DNA from: Candidatus Poribacteria bacterium | Lineage (GTDB): Bacteria > Poribacteria > WGA-4E > JAJDTR01 | Length of the DNA: 64,000 bases | Direction: 5' to 3' | Assembly: GCA_022827055.1 (NCBI GenBank) | Contig: JAJDTR010000140.1 | Span: forward strand, 1-64,000 | Shown here: in pieces, positions 4,400 through 30,954 of the stretch | How the letters are laid out: the number at the start of each line of letters is the position of its first letter | How positions within the stretch are numbered: the first letter of the stretch is position 1 | Notes under the pieces: generated by a model | The model's input: only the letters and a program-made list of their open reading frames with translations | The model's database searches: none | What the model was told of the DNA's origin: nothing | Made by a program: the position numbers and the translations under genes

Positions 4400-6076
4400 C
4401 TATTCATTGATTTCGCCATGGGCTTTTGCTGCGGTTACCGAGCTACTTGACACGTACCGGTCAATCCCGTTTGCAATTGCTTCCGCGATGCTTCGTTTGT
4501 ATGTTTTTTTCGTCAGTTTCTTTGCCTCTGCTCGATGAGACAAGAAACCTACCTCAACCAGAATCGCCGGAACCTTTGTGCCGATTAACACCACAAACGG
4601 CGCATGCTTCACTCCACGATCTTTTGCGTTTGTCGAGTCGACCAACTCCGACTGAACAAACTGAGCGAGCCGGTGACTTTCTTCACTCTTAGTCTCTTTG
4701 AGAATCCTTGTTACAAGTTTATCAAGTTCCTTGATACTAAATCCTGAGCCGCTATTTTCGCGGGCGGCTGTGCGTTGCGCCGTTTCATCGGAGGCAAGGG
4801 CAAGGTAGTAGGTTTCAACGCCTGAAGCACCGGTATTGGCGGCGGCGTTTGCGTGAATGCTAACGAAGAGGTCTGCTCCGTGTATAGTAGCTTTTCGAGT
4901 GCGTTCGCGGAGAGGGAGATAGGTGTCATTGTCGCGCGTCAGCCGCACATTGTAACCTCGACTTACCAGCAGGTTTCGCAGCATGAGCGAAAGTTCCAGT
5001 ACGACCATCTTCTCATGAACGTGTGATTTGCTTGTTGCGCCGGGGTCCTTGCCACCATGTCCGGGGTCGATAACAACTGTCTTAACTTCGAGCCCAAGTT
5101 GGCGCGGCAATGTGAGATTGCCGCCGAAGTTGGTCGGCGGGTTTTCTCCATGAACGTCCTGTTCCGGACGGCGCGTTTCAATCTTTTGCGGTTGGGTTGT
5201 CCGTTTTTCACTTGTCGGAGCGGCTACTTCAAGCTGGTTGTCGCTAGTTGGAAGGCTAGCAATTTCAACCTCATCGGAAAGCACTATTTGTGGGATAGAT
5301 TGCCCTTCCGTCCGAAACTTTTCTCCGTCAGTTTTGGGAGGAGGTGCGGCCATGAACGGTACAACCGGCAATTCGTCGGATTGTCGCCCCAGCGATCGCC
5401 GTACCGATGGCATGTTGGTCCCGAGTGAATCAATTCTCTCCCGTTCTGATTCACCTGATTCAGGAGTCAACCCTAACCGAAGATTTCGGATGCGTTCCTC
5501 TGCCCGGGTGCCAAGCTGCACATTGTTAGTTCGTCTAGCGACGAATTGATACATTGAAATTGCCACTGCCAGGTTTTTCTGTTTTTCATAGATTCGTGCC
5601 AAGTTAAACTGCGCCAGTTCGGACATAGAATGGTTGAAATGTTCGTTGGTTACTCTCTGATAGTGTATGGTTGCGCGGTTGTCGTCGCCGAGTTGAAAGT
5701 GGCAGGCGCCAAGCCAATAATGCGCATCAGCGACCAGAGGTGTATCAGTGTAGTTTGCCAGAAGTTTTTCGAGTGCGTCTATCGCATGTCGGATGTGCAC
5801 CGGATCCGTACCTTTTGATAGCCAAATCCAGCATGAACCGATCGCGTATTGGGCATCATCTGCCCATTCGCCGCTGGGATTGGCGGCGACAACAGTCTCA
5901 AATTCATTGATGAGTGCCATCCATTCGTCCTCCGATCCACCAACCTTCCTGTCGGTAAGTTGATGATGGCGATTTGAGGCGCTGTTGTACATTGCCGGCA
6001 CCAAATCGGCAGAGCGAAAACAGGATGACAGTGTTGTAACAAAGGAAAGAAGGATTGATATACACGATATTTTCAT
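4400..6076 (-). CDS. N-acetylmuramoyl-L-alanine amidase lipoprotein with TPR-like domain
   Basis: 558 residues. The N-terminus ends in a likely lipobox (LSSC near residue 19). A TPR/YbgF-like region (about 50-200; 'WADDAQYAIGSCWI', 'AHYWLGACHFQLGD') follows, then a low-complexity linker. The C-terminal Amidase_3 domain (about 335-550) carries 'VVIDPGHGGKDPG', 'HEKMVVLELS', 'LFVSIHANAAAN' and 'ILVEVGFLSHRAEA', which supply the expected Zn ligands His, Glu, His and the catalytic Glu. It cleaves the amide between MurNAc and L-Ala in peptidoglycan, in the periplasm. TPR plus amidase is not the usual AMIN plus amidase layout of AmiB/AmiC, so targeting may differ. The next gene downstream encodes the exported PIMT. 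No clear ribosome site precedes the ATG. Confidence 0.88.
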   Translation of the reverse strand: MKISCISILLSFVTTLSSCFRSADLVPAMYNSASNRHHQLTDRKVGGSEDEWMALINEFETVVAANPSGEWADDAQYAIGSCWIWLSKGTDPVHIRHAIDALEKLLANYTDTPLVADAHYWLGACHFQLGDDNRATIHYQRVTNEHFNHSMSELAQFNLARIYEKQKNLAVAISMYQFVARRTNNVQLGTRAEERIRNLRLGLTPESGESERERIDSLGTNMPSVRRSLGRQSDELPVVPFMAAPPPKTDGEKFRTEGQSIPQIVLSDEVEIASLPTSDNQLEVAAPTSEKRTTQPQKIETRRPEQDVHGENPPTNFGGNLTLPRQLGLEVKTVVIDPGHGGKDPGATSKSHVHEKMVVLELSLMLRNLLVSRGYNVRLTRDNDTYLPLRERTRKATIHGADLFVSIHANAAANTGASGVETYYLALASDETAQRTAARENSGSGFSIKELDKLVTRILKETKSEESHRLAQFVQSELVDSTNAKDRGVKHAPFVVLIGTKVPAILVEVGFLSHRAEAKKLTKKTYKRSIAEAIANGIDRYVSSSSVTAAKAHGEINE

Positions 6077-8174: not shown

Positions 8175-8593
8175 CCTGCTGCCATTCTCAAACCCTGAGC
8201 CTCGTATCTCAAGACGGCTGTTTGCTTTAAGTTGTTTCAAAATATAGTAAATCGTACTCACGATTCCACGTCTAGGTATTTCTGCCAATGTGCTTGCCAA
8301 TGAGAGAAAAACGGGTGTGAGTAATCCGTTTAGAGTTGGAGCAAGATAGGCAATTGCGTCGGTTAAAGGACGCATTCGATTTCCTAATATCTGTCAACAA
8401 ACCTAGCCCCTTAATCCATCTTTAAACACGCTCTCTTTATAAAACAAACCCAAACTTCGGGAGTACCGTCGAAGGAAATGTAGGGTGGGCAACCATCCCA
8501 CTGTTACATCCGCACAACTCAGATACCGCTAACCACCACAAGTTTTGATTTTGCATGCATTTTTATTCCCACAAACTCCATAAGCTACACACC
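8175..8593. other. intergenic stretch, nothing specific recognised
   Basis: About 420 bases between two plus-strand genes. A minus-strand ORF (8145-8375) overlaps the 3' end of the preceding gene and was rejected. No clear terminator with a T-run and no strong promoter were seen. Confidence 0.45.
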
Positions 8594-11500
8594 ATGTTTA
8601 GTTCTATCCTGCGCGCCTACTGTTGCATGCTTCTATCTGCTATGCTTAACGTTGCATCACTGGCGCCGGCTAACGACAACGGCACATTATCGACCGATTC
8701 TCCCGAGATAACTATTCCGACCAGCTTGGAATCTCCAGACACAGAGTTCTTTATTACTTCTGAACAGCGACTCACCTTTGATAGTGTCTACACCATCGAG
8801 CTAGAGTTACCATTCACTGGAAATGTGGAGATAAACGCTGTTGATGGCGACAATATTGCCGTCAGACTTGAAAAGCACGGACGCGGATTGGACGAAGACG
8901 GCGTAAGAAAATACCTCGAAGCGGTAGAATTGTCAGTCTCAAAAACTGCTGAAGCGCTCTCGCTTGCGCCGAAACTACCCGCAGCTCCCAACTCAACAAC
9001 CGAACTAACGAGATTAGACTGCTTTGTCGAAACGCCAGCTGATGTCTCCCTTAAAATTCGAACACAGAACGGAAATATTCGGATCAGCCGAATTCGAGGA
9101 GATATTGAATTAAAAGCAGCAATCGGTGAGATTCACCTGAACGACACAATGGGTGGATATCAAGTTTTTTCCGGCGGAGGAGACATCCACTGTAAAATTC
9201 TTCTGACCGATCGAGCGAACCAGTTTGAAACCGCTTTAGGAGACATTAATCTTGTCGTGTTGGATGAGATTGCCGCTCCGACCGATTTGACCGCGATGGG
9301 CGGCGGAATTTCGCTACGACTTCCCAATTCGTTCCAAGCCGAGGTAGAGGTTCAAACCAAAAGCCAAGACCCGCGCGCAGTGTCCATAAACCTCCCCGTT
9401 GAAGTTGAAGGCTCATTCCAGGGGGACTCACTGCATGGTTCGATTAATGGAGGCGGTCCACTTTTCCGACTGACCGCGGACACCAAAGTCGAAATCCTCC
9501 CTCTTGAAGGCACATCTACCGACGCTGAAACCTCGGCTGAATCCGCAGATTTTGAGATTGAAGTAGACAGCGCTCAACAGGTGCCGAGAGCGCTGCAATC
9601 GCCGGTAATCGATGGCAATCTGTTTGAAAAAGCTTGGTCAAAAGCGGTGACGTTACACCCTTTTTATAATGCAGACGGGACAGCAGAACCTGACGAGCCC
9701 ACACAGGCATACCTTATGTGGGATGAACGGCACCTGTACATCGGAATCAAAGTCTATAGTCATGAAATGGGACAACTCCATATCTCGCAGACGGAGACAG
9801 GTTCGGCAGTTTGGCAGGACGATTCGATAGAGATCCTGGTCGATCCCAATCCGGAAACTAAGCTGTACTATCACCTAATCGTCAATCCAATCGGTACCAT
9901 ATTCAGCCAGATGGTCAAGGCAGATTATCCGCCGAATAATCGGTTCGCCCCAACGTTTACCGAATCCGACGCGAATCGCAAATCGGGTGCAAAGATATTT
10001 CGAAATTCACAGGTCGAACCGAACCGAAATCGGAACGCTAGTAATTCCTATCCCGATGCCGTGCAAGCCGAGGTCGAAACCCAAATCACATCTCGGTACT
10101 GGAGCATTGAAATTGCCTTGTTGCGCGATTTCTTGGAACCCGAATTAACGGGTAATTGGCGATTAAACCTGCTCCGCAGAGCTTATGAAAACCGCGAATT
10201 CAGTTATTGGATGCCGACCTACAACATGCAGACACCGTGGTGGCCCCATTACAGAGATCGAATGGGGAGGCTTCAATTCGCCGAGGCAGGCGAAGAATCG
10301 GCGTTGTTTGGAATTGACCAACAACTACAGATAGGGGAAATCGAGATAAAAGGAAACAGCGAAATATCCACGTTAGAAATCGTTCGGCAGATCCCGTTCC
10401 AGATTGGGGAAACGATCACTGGCAGCCAACTGTCGTGGCTGGTTGATGAACTTAATGAACACCCATGGCTTCGGAAGGCAAGACTAGACACGATTCCTCT
10501 CGATTCAGTTGAGGGCAAGGGCCACGTGTATTCTCATGAAATTGTTGGCAAGGATACAGCGGAATCGATTCAACATCTGAACGGGGCAGATACAACGATG
10601 GACGAGGAAAGCGCGTTGCTTCCACTCAGACTTGCTCTTCGTATCCATGTTACAGAATTTTCATCCGTGATACTCGAAAAATTGGAGTTCACGGGAAATT
10701 CGCACTATAAATCGTCCATGCTGAGAAAGTGGTTCGGGTTAAACCGCGGGCGGGTGTCCATCGAGGAGCTAAACACAAAATCTCAACTTATGGCAACACT
10801 TTACCGGAATAACGATTTCGTACTTGCAAGAATCAAAGAGAGGTTTGACCCACATAGGCTGGAATTTACCATTAACGAGGGACGCTTGGACGAAGTGCGT
10901 TTTACCGGAAACAAACGGATTAAACGTCACGAATTGACCCAAAATTTAAGGTTGCAAAAAGGTGATGTCTATAATGAATTACAAACTCAGAAGAAAATTA
11001 ACCGCATGCGAAAAGACCTCGGGAATCACAATGAATTCTTCAAGGATGTTCGGGATTGGGAGGTGAAGAGAGAATATGGAAGAAATGTGCTATTCATAAA
11101 TATTGAAGAGCATCCACCCATTCGCTACTCTGCCTTGCCGCGTGTGGGCTTCAGTCGTGTACACGGATTAATTTTGGGAGGCAGCGGTGTGGTGTCCACA
11201 GATGCATATGTCAAGGGACGATTCTCCGGCGGCGCGAGCCGCGGACTCTCCAGTTCAATCACGAATTTTCAGGTCGGCGCGGAAACATCGTGGTTTGACA
11301 CTCGTGAATTGCGCCTCGGCGGTTCATGGTACAAACTGACCGGAGTTGTTCATAGCACATCAACGTACGTGGGAGAGGGTATACTGTCATCAGCTCTATT
11401 GGGAACATCTATCGTCGATTACTATCAACGCCAAGGCTATCAGACATGGCTGGCTCAGAAATTGACGGCTTCTTCTGAGATTGCAGTCAGTTTTACCGAT

Positions 11501-12229
11501 GAACGGCATGAGAAGCTTTTTACAGTCACAGACTGGAGTCTGCTTTCGCGAGGTCTTCCCAAGCGAGGCAATGCCCGCATTGACGAGGGAACAATGCGTA
11601 GCTTCGAACTTTCGTATCATTTCGATACCAGAGATCACAAGTTTCATATCAGGCGTCCGTTTACGTCTATACCTTGGCCGAGTGAGCACACGACTCGAGG
11701 TTGGCGCAATTCCTTCTCGGTGGAGTATTCAAGTCACCGATTCAATAGCGACTTCGATTTTACCCTGTGCCGATTTGAGGCGGTAAGATACAACCGTTTG
11801 CCCAATGGTCACAATCTTGATTTTCGAATCATCGGTGCTCTTTCGGACTCTCCACTACCTAGGCAGCGGTTGCTATATGCAAATCTCAATAACATAATGC
11901 GCGGCTACCGCTACAATAGATTCATTGGCGATAACATGCTTGCCTTGAATGTTGAATACAGAGTTGTCCAGAGACTTAAGCACATCAGCAAGGGCAAAAC
12001 AGTAAACGGAGCAGTTTCAATCTTTCTTGATGCCGGTGATGCCTGGTTCCATCACGAACGATTTAGCCTTGCGCGCGCGAGGGCCTCAGTCGGAATGGGG
12101 TTTTCACTATTCACAAACGCAATGCCGTATGACGGCGCCCCGGATACCCTACGCGTTGAGATTGTCCGAGCATTAGAGAAAAGACGGCAGGTCACTCGTT
12201 ACATCTTGCGGCTCTCGCGGGATTTCTGA
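8594..12229 (+). CDS. multidomain outer membrane protein: DUF4097-like, CBM9-like, POTRA repeats, Omp85 barrel
   Basis: 1211 residues from the ATG at 8594, chosen because it begins the signal peptide 'MFSSILRAYCCMLLSAML'. In ORF-track numbering, residues about 80-310 are beta-rich with adhesin/DUF4097-like strands ('IRTQNGNIRISRIRGDIELKA'). Residues about 342-569 look like a family 9 carbohydrate-binding module ('VIDGNLFEKAWSKA', 'YLMWDERHLYIGIKV', 'WQDDSIEILVDP'). About 590-855 carry three POTRA-like units ('IGEIEIKGNSEISTLEIVRQI', 'LEKLEFTGNSHY', 'LDEVRFTGNKRIKRHEL'). The remainder is a BamA/TamA-type barrel with 'MRGYRYNRFIGDNM' (the RGY motif region) and a terminal Phe (LSRDF). Omp85 proteins insert or translocate proteins at the outer membrane. 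The N-terminal modules are unusual. The ordinary bamA is not in this window. Confidence 0.82.
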   Translation: MFSSILRAYCCMLLSAMLNVASLAPANDNGTLSTDSPEITIPTSLESPDTEFFITSEQRLTFDSVYTIELELPFTGNVEINAVDGDNIAVRLEKHGRGLDEDGVRKYLEAVELSVSKTAEALSLAPKLPAAPNSTTELTRLDCFVETPADVSLKIRTQNGNIRISRIRGDIELKAAIGEIHLNDTMGGYQVFSGGGDIHCKILLTDRANQFETALGDINLVVLDEIAAPTDLTAMGGGISLRLPNSFQAEVEVQTKSQDPRAVSINLPVEVEGSFQGDSLHGSINGGGPLFRLTADTKVEILPLEGTSTDAETSAESADFEIEVDSAQQVPRALQSPVIDGNLFEKAWSKAVTLHPFYNADGTAEPDEPTQAYLMWDERHLYIGIKVYSHEMGQLHISQTETGSAVWQDDSIEILVDPNPETKLYYHLIVNPIGTIFSQMVKADYPPNNRFAPTFTESDANRKSGAKIFRNSQVEPNRNRNASNSYPDAVQAEVETQITSRYWSIEIALLRDFLEPELTGNWRLNLLRRAYENREFSYWMPTYNMQTPWWPHYRDRMGRLQFAEAGEESALFGIDQQLQIGEIEIKGNSEISTLEIVRQIPFQIGETITGSQLSWLVDELNEHPWLRKARLDTIPLDSVEGKGHVYSHEIVGKDTAESIQHLNGADTTMDEESALLPLRLALRIHVTEFSSVILEKLEFTGNSHYKSSMLRKWFGLNRGRVSIEELNTKSQLMATLYRNNDFVLARIKERFDPHRLEFTINEGRLDEVRFTGNKRIKRHELTQNLRLQKGDVYNELQTQKKINRMRKDLGNHNEFFKDVRDWEVKREYGRNVLFINIEEHPPIRYSALPRVGFSRVHGLILGGSGVVSTDAYVKGRFSGGASRGLSSSITNFQVGAETSWFDTRELRLGGSWYKLTGVVHSTSTYVGEGILSSALLGTSIVDYYQRQGYQTWLAQKLTASSEIAVSFTDERHEKLFTVTDWSLLSRGLPKRGNARIDEGTMRSFELSYHFDTRDHKFHIRRPFTSIPWPSEHTTRGWRNSFSVEYSSHRFNSDFDFTLCRFEAVRYNRLPNGHNLDFRIIGALSDSPLPRQRLLYANLNNIMRGYRYNRFIGDNMLALNVEYRVVQRLKHISKGKTVNGAVSIFLDAGDAWFHHERFSLARARASVGMGFSLFTNAMPYDGAPDTLRVEIVRALEKRRQVTRYILRLSRDF

Positions 12230-14939: not shown

Positions 14940-16091
14940 CTAGGGGCGATAAGCAGCTTCAAGCGCGAGAATCGCATACGAAGTTACAAGGACCGGAAAA
15001 CTCTCCATCCACCGGCTTGACTCATTCACCCAATGTCCCTCGGGGTGCTGTTCAGATAGAAGTTTCTCGCCAAGTTCCCGGTACCAGTCGTGAGTCATAC
15101 CTTTACCATCCACGATGACAGGCTCGCCGTAAGCACTTAACGCCTTTGCCATGGTATGGTAATTATAGTAAAGCCCTTCTTGCCCCATCCCGTAATTCTC
15201 TTCAACGGTGAAGTGCTTTTTTATCCAATCGACCGCAGCTTGCACTCGTGAATCGTCCTTATCAACGTTGGCGTAGATGAAACTCAAAAGGCCTGCGTAC
15301 GTCATGCTCGCATAAGATCTTGGTTTGTCGCTTTCATCCCTGCCGGCTTTACTTTGGCCATCTGGAGCATAGATGAAACCTCCGTCATTGCCCGCCCAAC
15401 TCTCGCTGTTGGTTTCACTACTGTTCTGGCATTTTTGCAGAAATTTGATGGCTTTATCCCATACTTGTTGATCGTCAGAACCACTCTCTTTTAGCGCTTG
15501 GACAGCAAAATTCAGATTTGAGAGATCGTGAACGGTTTCGCGACTTCCGTAACCAATACCACCATAGTATACGCTCTCCGAATCTTGGACTTGCAGTCTC
15601 TTGATGAAATTTTGTGCTTTTGCGATTGCCAACTTATATTCAGGATTGCCCGTGGACGACAGTGCCATTAGTGAAACTGATGTATTGTAGTTGGGCAGGG
15701 CCGGCTGCTGATCCGCGTTATAGATTGCCCCATTTGGTTGTTGAAACTCCAACAAGGCTTGGAGCGCCTTCTGAACAAATGGGTGGTTGGTTTCCGCATA
15801 CCGGTTCTCGGGATGCCTTAAGAACGCGGTAACTGCCAACCCGGTCATTCCAGGGTGATGCTCGAATAGGCCATCATCTCCCTGTTTGGTTTTCAGCCAT
15901 TCAAGCCCGCGATTAATAGCCTTTAGTACATTTCGGTTTAAGTCTTCATAGGAAGCATCGGTACCTGGTTGCATCTGGTGACTTAATGACGATGCCTCGC
16001 TGTGCAAGAGGATTGACAGGTTCAGAACTAGCATGAGAAAAACGAATGCCAGAATCCAAGACATACGGGCAAGATGAATTCTTCTTATCAT
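14940..16091 (-). CDS. prenyltransferase/squalene oxidase-repeat protein, membrane-anchored or exported
   Basis: 383 residues from the ATG at 16091, with GGAGG about 10 bases upstream. A hydrophobic N-terminus ('ILAFVFLMLVLNLSILL') is a signal peptide or anchor. The rest is built of alpha/alpha-barrel repeats such as 'GLEWLKTKQGDDGLFEHHPGMTGLAVTAFL', 'ALQALLEFQQPNGAIYN' and 'SWAGNDGGFIYAPDGQ', the pattern of the squalene-cyclase/prenyltransferase-repeat superfamily. The DxDD acid motif of true squalene-hopene cyclases was not found, so a terpene-cyclase activity should not be assumed. Exported members occur widely in Planctomycetes and relatives with unknown function. It lies upstream of the cytochrome gene's end in the same direction, about 230 bases away. 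Confidence 0.8.
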   Translation of the reverse strand: MIRRIHLARMSWILAFVFLMLVLNLSILLHSEASSLSHQMQPGTDASYEDLNRNVLKAINRGLEWLKTKQGDDGLFEHHPGMTGLAVTAFLRHPENRYAETNHPFVQKALQALLEFQQPNGAIYNADQQPALPNYNTSVSLMALSSTGNPEYKLAIAKAQNFIKRLQVQDSESVYYGGIGYGSRETVHDLSNLNFAVQALKESGSDDQQVWDKAIKFLQKCQNSSETNSESWAGNDGGFIYAPDGQSKAGRDESDKPRSYASMTYAGLLSFIYANVDKDDSRVQAAVDWIKKHFTVEENYGMGQEGLYYNYHTMAKALSAYGEPVIVDGKGMTHDWYRELGEKLLSEQHPEGHWVNESSRWMESFPVLVTSYAILALEAAYRP

Positions 16092-16324
16092 TCTTTGTAA
16101 ACCTCCAAGTTTTAGGGCGCAATTTATTAAGTTAGCACAATACAACTGAGAAAACTCGTTTCAGTGCATGGTTTCTTCTTCGCAAATGCCGTGCCAGCAG
16201 TGCAAGTACCGTATCCATTCGGCGAAAGCACGGCACCGTCATAACCTTGACCAACTAATGTGCATTGCTGTCCATAAGTTGAACAAAATGACTTCAATTT
16301 CAATGATGTACGAGTTTTGATGTT

Positions 16325-29157: not shown

Positions 29158-30954
29158 CTATTTTCCGATGACCATCTTCCGCATGGCGCTAAACTCGTTG
29201 GCCTTCATTGAGTAGAAGTATACTCCGCTAGTCACCAATTCTCCAGCATCGTTTCGTCCATCCCAGTGGGCGGCTTGAGGGTGCTCGACATACCTGCCCG
29301 CGTGACGGTGACCGATGTCAAGACGCCGCACAGGTTGTCCGAGAACGTCATAGATGAATATCGTTACGTTTGACGAGTTGGCAAGCTGATACGGAATCCA
29401 CGTTTCCGGGTTGAAAGGATTCGGATAATTTGGAAGTAGCATAGATTCAGAGGGAATTTCTCCACTGGTCACGAGCCATTGACGCAATAATTTTGCGGGA
29501 AGGAGCACACTCGGATCTGTTTCGGATAAATTCTCTAGTTCGGTCAGAGCAACACGTGTACGCATACCTGCATCGCGGTCCGTCAATCTCATGCTCAGGT
29601 GCTGCGGGGCTCCGAAGTCCTTGGAATTCAGCGAAATAAGCGGTGGCGCCGTCGCTACGGTAGCTTCACCGAAATGACTGGCAACGAGCACAAGGTCAAA
29701 GATGTTCACGGTTCCGTTTCTGTCAATGTCTCCGGAAAGCCCCTGCCCAGACTGACCAAATTGGGATGCGACTGTCACCAAGTCGAAAATATTCACTGAT
29801 CCGTTCTTGTCCACATCCCACGGCGGGTAGTCAATATAGGCGAACTGAATTGACGCCGAGTGGCTATCGGGATTTGTGACAATGACCTCAACGGCGCCCC
29901 TAGTTCCCGCCGGAACGGTGACGGAAAGTTCCGTGTCTGACACGACAACGACGTTGCTTGCTTCAATTCCGCCAAATGTGACGGCTGCGCCCTCTTGAAA
30001 ATTCTCGCCTAGAATTTGAACTGTTGACCCGCCTAACGCGAGGGCCTTATCCGGTATTATACTAGTCAATCGCGGAACATCAATATAGGTGAATTGAATC
30101 GATGCGGAAAGGCTATCGGGATTGGTGACCATGACATTAACGGCACCCCTAGTTCCCGCCGGAACGGTGACGGAGAGTTCTGTGTCTGATACAACAACGA
30201 CATTGCTTGCTTCAATTCCACCAAATGTGACAGTTACACCCTCTTGGAAATTTTCGCCTAGGATTTGAACTGTTGACCCGCCCGACGCGAGGGCATTATC
30301 CGGAATTATTTTAGTCAATCGCGGAACGTCAATATAGGTGAACCGAATCAATGCAGGAGGGCTATCAGGATTGGTGACCATCACATTAACAGCGCCCCTC
30401 GATCCCGCCGGAACAGTGACGGAGAGTTCTGTGTCTGACACAACAACGACGTTGCTTGCCTCAACCCCGCCAAATGTGACAGTTACACCCTCTTGGAAAT
30501 TTTCGCCTAGAATTTTAACTATTGACCCACCCGACGCAAGGGCATTGTCAGGACTTATGCTATCCAATTTTAGTCGCGGTATAATTTTTAGGTCAACATT
30601 TACAAACCCTTTGTCAAGATCTGCTTGCGCTATTCTTTTTGTTTCCTCGGCGGCAACAATGCCCATCTGTTTAACGCTGACTTTGATTTCATCATTGATG
30701 TCGGCTACGCTTTTACCAAAAAAGTCGATAAAGGTGGCGGCATAGGTGCCCGGCCCACTGTCACCGGTGAATTGCATGAGCATTAGGTTCTTTGCTTCAT
30801 TCGAAACAGTAACTTCGAGACCATTAAGCGGCGAATTTTCTTCGTCGGTCACGTGTCCGCTAACTATAAAGAAGCTAGCTGTGTTGCCAACCATCGGGAT
30901 ACTCAGCCCAAGTATAACTAGCCCTACGTAAAACCACCGAATCCCGTGTTTCAT
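29158..30954 (-). CDS. secreted TIG-repeat/dockerin protein with T9SS-type sorting tail
   Basis: 598 residues from the ATG at 30954, with AGGAAGG just upstream; the ORF-track ATG overlaps that site. A signal peptide ('FYVGLVILGLSIPMVGNTAS') is followed by a carboxypeptidase-regulatory-like beta domain. Three nearly identical IPT/TIG units come next ('GGSTVQILGENFQEGVTVTFGG'), then two dockerin-like EF-hand segments ('DVDKNGSVNIFDLVTVASQFG', 'DIDRNGTVNIFDLVLVASHFG'). The C-terminal domain has 'LLPNYPNPFNPETWIPYQLA', 'WDGRNDAGELVTSGVYFYSMKA' and ends 'MVIGK'. That tail is the Por-secretion/FlgD-Ig-like sorting type. TIG folds usually mediate binding. It is presumably a surface or secreted protein with Ca-binding dockerin repeats. 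The tail is the strongest taxonomic hint to Poribacteria. Confidence 0.88.
   Translation of the reverse strand: MKHGIRWFYVGLVILGLSIPMVGNTASFFIVSGHVTDEENSPLNGLEVTVSNEAKNLMLMQFTGDSGPGTYAATFIDFFGKSVADINDEIKVSVKQMGIVAAEETKRIAQADLDKGFVNVDLKIIPRLKLDSISPDNALASGGSIVKILGENFQEGVTVTFGGVEASNVVVVSDTELSVTVPAGSRGAVNVMVTNPDSPPALIRFTYIDVPRLTKIIPDNALASGGSTVQILGENFQEGVTVTFGGIEASNVVVVSDTELSVTVPAGTRGAVNVMVTNPDSLSASIQFTYIDVPRLTSIIPDKALALGGSTVQILGENFQEGAAVTFGGIEASNVVVVSDTELSVTVPAGTRGAVEVIVTNPDSHSASIQFAYIDYPPWDVDKNGSVNIFDLVTVASQFGQSGQGLSGDIDRNGTVNIFDLVLVASHFGEATVATAPPLISLNSKDFGAPQHLSMRLTDRDAGMRTRVALTELENLSETDPSVLLPAKLLRQWLVTSGEIPSESMLLPNYPNPFNPETWIPYQLANSSNVTIFIYDVLGQPVRRLDIGHRHAGRYVEHPQAAHWDGRNDAGELVTSGVYFYSMKANEFSAMRKMVIGK
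29832..30570 (-). repeat. three tandem 249-bp repeats coding the TIG domains
   Basis: The string CAATATAGG recurs at 29832, 30081 and 30330, exactly 249 bases apart, and long stretches around it are nearly identical. Each unit codes one 83-residue TIG domain. The first in protein order is the most diverged and has two extra residues at its start. Confidence 0.85.

Follow-up and report, generated by a model that had tools for sequence, protein, structure and literature searches.

A toastrack-CBM9-POTRA-Omp85 protein of Poribacteria, a new architecture within the Omp85 superfamily

Wherever bacteria have an outer membrane, Omp85 proteins build or cross it, and the adaptation of this machinery can be read from the new arms that they carry. 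Poribacteria, from which the protein described here comes, are largely uncultivated, often sponge-associated bacteria. The sections of the 2014 survey by Heinz and Lithgow that are cited here describe ten Omp85/TpsB subfamilies, including BamA-like, patatin, WD40, metallo, lipo, and noNterm types (PMC4104836); a toastrack or CBM9 type is not described in these sections, and the words carbohydrate and DUF occur nowhere in the paper. According to the same sections, BamA-like proteins always accompany BamA, and assembly is the conservative guess for their role.

The window, a stretch of 64,000 nucleotides from a Candidatus Poribacteria bacterium, carries an open frame of 1211 codons at positions 8594 to 12229 (+). 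Pfam searches and homologues divided the 1211-residue product into a signal peptide, a toastrack (DUF4097), a CBM9-like module, three POTRAs, and an Omp85 barrel. The earlier note, made from the sequence alone, had named the same four kinds of domain in the same order; the identities were borne out by Pfam, two AlphaFold models, and Foldseek, and Pfam showed the order to be correct. The signal peptide (residues 1 to 26; 8594 to 8671, +), in which no lipobox was seen, was assigned by reading the sequence and not by a predictor. The start at 8594 would give an ordinary signal peptide, and an in-frame ATG at 8555, 39 bases upstream, is a possible alternative start.

The toastrack, of the beta-helix type, occupies residues about 50 to 305 (8741 to 9508, +) and matched PF13349 with 25.1 bits at residues 153 to 259 (hmmscan; cut-off, 22.9). 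The CBM9-like module of about 240 residues (about 327 to 566; 9572 to 10291, +) matched CBM9_1 (PF06452) with 40.2 bits at residues 339 to 457 (hmmscan; cut-off, 23.4) and, by profile, the CBM9 structure 1i82 (E value, 1.5e-9). An AlphaFold model of the mature protein, built on 42 sequences, had a mean pLDDT of 80 and a pTM of 0.50, at which the relative domain orientation is unreliable; as a whole, it matched BamA, TamA, and Toc75 by Foldseek. A second AlphaFold model covered residues 46 to 570 alone and was compared with the PDB by Foldseek. In both models, the block pLDDT of the toastrack and CBM9 modules was mostly 80 to 95. The best PDB match of the second model was the toastrack 4qrk (E value, 5.4e-8), the CBM9 modules 7nwn, 7nwo, and 1i82 were matched with target TM-scores of 0.70 to 0.74 (0.74 for 7nwo and 0.70 for 1i82), and further putative adhesins ranked after the toastrack and CBM9 matches. 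No POTRA appeared among the PDB matches of this model; thus, the outcome that the earlier note had named as speaking against it, an N-terminal part of about 570 residues that is POTRA-like or unrelated to CBM9 and DUF4097, did not occur. The candidate explanation that this part consists of additional POTRAs was ruled out by the toastrack and CBM9 matches.

Both 4qrk and 4opw have been cited as examples of the toastrack; the proposal is that this fold docks proteins and serves as a platform on which signaling complexes assemble (PMC11237479). The earlier note had suggested that the added modules could bind glycans and couple them to protein or glycan export; the toastrack of this literature is a proposed docking fold, not a glycan-export module. 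LiaG and other toastrack proteins share the fold with the poribacterial protein, as judged from the match to 4qrk; they serve membrane-stress signaling, and an intracellular location is argued for them (PMC11237479), whereas the poribacterial toastrack is exported as part of an outer-membrane barrel protein. In genome G010, tandem genes for stand-alone toastrack proteins (L066:5178-8893), one of which also has a SHOCT-like domain, resemble toastrack stress-signaling loci.

Three POTRA stretches (68.5 bits, Pfam) lie N-terminal to the barrel, and all three were also delimited in the AlphaFold model. POTRA 1 (residues about 576 to 688; 10319 to 10657, +) has a POTRA_1 match at 580 to 632 and a low-confidence insert at 638 to 674; POTRA 2 spans residues about 691 to 761 (10664 to 10876, +), and POTRA 3, the best PF07244 stretch, residues 766 to 839 (10889 to 11110, +). 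The Omp85 barrel, delimited by AlphaFold, profile, and Foldseek, covers residues about 843 to 1211 (11120 to 12226, +), with 16 transmembrane strands counted from the model. Its Pfam match lay at the cut-off of 24 (23.6 bits by hmmscan and 25.6 bits in the genome search), and the POTRA-plus-barrel profile matched solved BamA and TamA with a best E value of 7e-39. The arginine of the loop-6 RGY motif (residues 1103 to 1105; 11900 to 11908, +) was conserved in 39 of 42 homologues, and the aspartate of FLDAG, the FxDxG motif of the barrel (residues 1144 to 1148; 12023 to 12037, +), in 41 of 42. With the predicted 16-stranded barrel, both motifs, and the N-terminal POTRAs all present, the protein is, by motif and model, a member of the Omp85 superfamily.

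Compared with BamA, which it matches in profile and fold, the protein shares the POTRAs, the 16-stranded barrel, and the RGY and FxDxG motifs; however, it has three POTRAs where BamA has five, and it adds the toastrack and CBM9 module. The view that typical BamA and TamA lack these modules was supported. With the BamA equivalog TIGR03303 (NCBIfam), whose cut-off is 297 bits, the protein scored 45, and a conventional bamA, which the earlier note had proposed to look for, was found elsewhere in the genome: on contig C141 (L079:9829-12450), with four POTRA stretches, an Omp85 match of 132.7 bits, and an adjoining Skp/OmpH-like gene, read from the sequence. On these two grounds, the candidate identification of the protein as the genome's BamA was rejected. 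TamA is expected to have a TamB partner, and no PF04357 match, the one TamB family model searched, was found in this 92% complete genome. The patatin of PlpD, a type Vd protein of the order patatin-POTRA-barrel, is N-terminal. PlpD and the poribacterial protein both join a non-POTRA module to POTRA and barrel, but PlpD has a patatin and a single POTRA, whereas the poribacterial protein has no patatin by Pfam and has three POTRAs, and its release at the surface would be hypothetical. The WD40-Omp85 proteins in the cited sections of PMC4104836 likewise carry a foreign N-terminal fold on the barrel, a beta-propeller in contrast to toastrack and CBM9. The BamA-like subfamily, as described in those sections, has one to three POTRAs and is present besides BamA, as here, but toastrack and CBM9 are absent from that description. 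Because the defining features of BamA, TamA, and PlpD were tested and not found, the protein is set apart from all three. It is a new architecture inside the known Omp85 superfamily; in the literature library searched, no paper paired DUF4097 with Omp85, CBM9 with POTRA and the outer membrane, or Poribacteria with Omp85, and no earlier description of the toastrack-CBM9-Omp85 combination was found. Judged by title and abstract, the two papers in which BamA, POTRA, and a carbohydrate-binding module occur together do not describe it either.

The poribacterial host genome (5.57 Mb) has five Omp85 genes; the other three encode a WD40-type-looking protein (L004), a long multi-POTRA protein, and a 644-residue protein. 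LpxC was found, so that lipid A synthesis is likely in this host; the LptD model had no match in the genome and was positive in only 2 of 14 controls.

The occurrence of the architecture in relatives, which the earlier note had suggested looking for, was examined with a toastrack-plus-CBM9 profile, and a frame was counted when it covered nearly all of both modules. Such a frame was present in 72 of 85 poribacterial genomes, from seven of ten families (f1, f2, f4, f6, f8, f9, and f10), with one copy per genome among the matches listed. Among the matches listed for 302 genomes outside the phylum, none was found; because these genomes are a sample and weaker matches extend beyond those listed, rare cases outside Poribacteria may exist. 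A toastrack query matched 83 of the 85 phylum genomes, with some matches to other toastrack proteins. The domain order was the same across the phylum; within the taxonomic order, homologues showed 33 to 76% identity to the window protein, and a homologue from Candidatus Poribacteria was 75% identical. Outside Poribacteria, large frames that contain CBM9 (1224, 1088, 948, and 613 residues, and others) gave no toastrack or POTRA-barrel match with three domain profiles, and those scanned with Pfam were glycosidases, a phosphoesterase, a DUF5916 protein, or CBM9 alone. DUF5916 is a barrel, and CBM9-DUF5916 proteins of the same phylum (L092) likewise carry a CBM9_1 module N-terminal to another domain; unlike the protein described here, they have no POTRA, Omp85, or toastrack. 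As read from these genomes, the fusion is a phylum-wide trait of Poribacteria. Nearly the whole phylum keeps one Omp85 copy bearing a fold of glycan-binding type, and a single, near-universal copy fits a core function in the envelope better than a niche one.

CBM9 modules grip chain ends with an aromatic clamp, of which Trp71 is one half, and the CBM9 of one known enzyme has none of the expected binding residues (PMC8280721); CBM9-like folds need not bind sugars. In the profile alignment, W407 and E413 (9812 to 9832, +) stood opposite the first and last residues of WEQDSVE in TmCBM9-2; the tryptophan of this stretch is Trp71 by our own chain numbering, and the glutamate lies six residues further on. 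W407 was conserved in 36, E413 in 35, and N431 in all of 42 homologues. Candidate second clamp aromatics are Y538-W539 and W549-W550-P551-H552 (10205 to 10249, +), with W539 conserved in 40/42 and W550 in 36/42 homologues. W539 or the WWPH at 549 to 552 is a plausible counterpart of Trp175; the alignment tool left W539, W549, and W550 unpaired with 1i82 and so does not assign the residue. Families f7 and f5 have a shortened, eroded CBM9 region from which the clamp residues are gone; the first-clamp tryptophan is kept elsewhere. Because the clamp residues are conserved there, competence for glycan binding is plausible in most families, f7 and f5 excepted.

The homologues of family f3 (three genomes) have 651 to 695 residues, with a short linker between toastrack and barrel, and domain profiles detected neither CBM9 nor POTRA in these proteins. 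In the barrel tree, in which the placement of long-branch rows (f7, BamA, and other paralogues) is uncertain, f3 was nested inside the full-length clade of f1, f2, f4, and f6 (supports, 91/84 and 93/93); therefore, CBM9 and POTRAs were probably lost in f3 and the short form is probably not ancestral. The toastrack-barrel pair is the predicted core of the protein, CBM9 and POTRAs being dispensable in at least one family because f3 dropped both. The loss of the clamp in f7 and f5 and of the whole module in f3 likewise means that the CBM9 module is not indispensable. The f3 form thereby serves as a natural experiment that bears on which parts the protein needs.

In the three f3 genomes (L057:3-6758, L058:7978-14001, and L059:8032-9759), a large repeat protein is encoded convergently to the gene of the short toastrack-barrel form; it has a T9SS-like C-terminal tail (NYPNPFNPETWIPF...) and is Big_9/cadherin-like in L057. 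The genome of the window (G000) has 79 matches to the Por-secretion tail TIGR04183, one of them at 29167 to 29427 (-) of the window, and one SprA_N-like match at C27:12402-12713, in a 2185-residue frame; according to a paper of 2014, Poribacteria have no structural Por genes (PMC3909097).

Upstream of the Omp85 gene are genes for a helicase-domain protein and an Amidase_3 protein (other strand), and downstream is a gene for a GcvT-like protein, which is retained only in f1 and f2. An operon-type functional partner was rejected, as no neighbor gene was constant across relatives. Amidase_3 and squalene-cyclase-like genes near the Omp85 gene lie at 4403 to 6076 (-) and 14943 to 16145 (-). Both an amidase and a squalene-cyclase-like gene stand beside the Omp85 gene of a distant f7 homologue (L053); this one case weakly hints at an old neighborhood that included a peptidoglycan amidase.

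Our main reading, with a probability of roughly 0.42, is that the protein is an accessory BamA-like assembly or translocation factor working beside the canonical BamA. Its POTRAs and barrel would act on client proteins that are to be inserted into the outer membrane or moved across it, and its arm would stay periplasmic, by analogy with BamA and TamA. There, the toastrack may be where a partner or client docks, and the CBM9 module may clamp a glycan end, of a peptidoglycan strand or an envelope polysaccharide, and so keep the machine close to the wall or to glycosylated cargo. If CBM9 does bind a wall or surface glycan, the protein would physically link outer-membrane protein assembly to that glycan. 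The architecture is well supported; the ligand, topology, and client are what we infer. For the assembly or translocation half, the argument comes from knowledge of the family, and for the putative glycan step, solely from conservation of the clamp. Several findings count against this accessory role: the gene neighbors give no clear functional link, the clamp is gone in f7 and f5, and the toastrack is exported here, whereas PSP-type toastracks are argued to be cytoplasmic (PMC11237479). Moreover, f3 has no POTRAs; therefore, POTRA-based handling cannot be the whole function.

The losses in f7, f5, and f3 would also fit a CBM9-like module that is a structural spacer or protein binder, with the toastrack as the sole functional extra on a long-armed BamA-like factor. 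Heme-carrying subunits have this fold as well (ethylbenzene dehydrogenase and Nxr were among the lower Foldseek matches), and the known enzyme CBM9 without the expected residues (PMC8280721) points the same way; however, the conservation of W407, E413, and the C-terminal WWPH is more than a spacer needs, and we consider this alternative possible but doubtful. Self-secretion by the logic of PlpD, in which the barrel would send its own toastrack-CBM9 part to the surface to bind host or environmental glycans, would agree with the order of extra domain, POTRA, and barrel, which resembles PlpD in the cited sections of PMC4104836, and with solved entries among the Foldseek matches in which exported toastracks are annotated as putative adhesins. 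It is unlikely, given three POTRAs rather than one, no patatin, no cleavage-site evidence, a near-universal single copy that includes deep families, and the POTRA-free f3 form. We hold it quite improbable that the protein replaces TamA as a second assembly factor whose extra modules take part of TamB's periplasmic role: three POTRAs, TamA among the profile and fold matches, and the missing TamB match favor it, but that absence rests on one family model, toastrack-CBM9 is not TamB-like, and the paralogues C17 and C89 could equally be the TamA counterpart. A fusion created by misassembly, or a frame open by chance, is barely conceivable and was rejected, since the identical order in a single frame recurs in independent assemblies of 72 genomes and G+C is even along the gene (0.476 to 0.494). 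This recurrence across the phylum, together with toastrack and CBM9 folds that match solved structures, means that the architecture is not due to chance.

In Poribacteria, a second clade of Omp85 paralogues carries an N-terminal DUF4252 (L090:2975-5557 in G024, L060:7038-9140 in G018, and L082:1767-3668), followed by CBM9 in L090; the barrel tree separated this clade from the toastrack-CBM9 Omp85 proteins (100/99). L090 and L060 adjoin genes for an ECF-type sigma factor and a zf-HC2 anti-sigma factor. We speculate, as a rather unlikely case, that a new Omp85 subfamily is characteristic of Poribacteria in which the toastrack docks cargo or partners, CBM9 reads glycan ends, and an envelope glycan is thereby coupled to, or gates, insertion or export at the outer membrane, the DUF4252-CBM9-Omp85 protein at the ECF sigma locus being a stress-regulated sister system. 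Further Omp85 barrels of 680 to 834 residues occur as neighboring copies in L086, L088, and L091, and DUF4159 proteins lie beside Omp85 barrels in L088 and L060.
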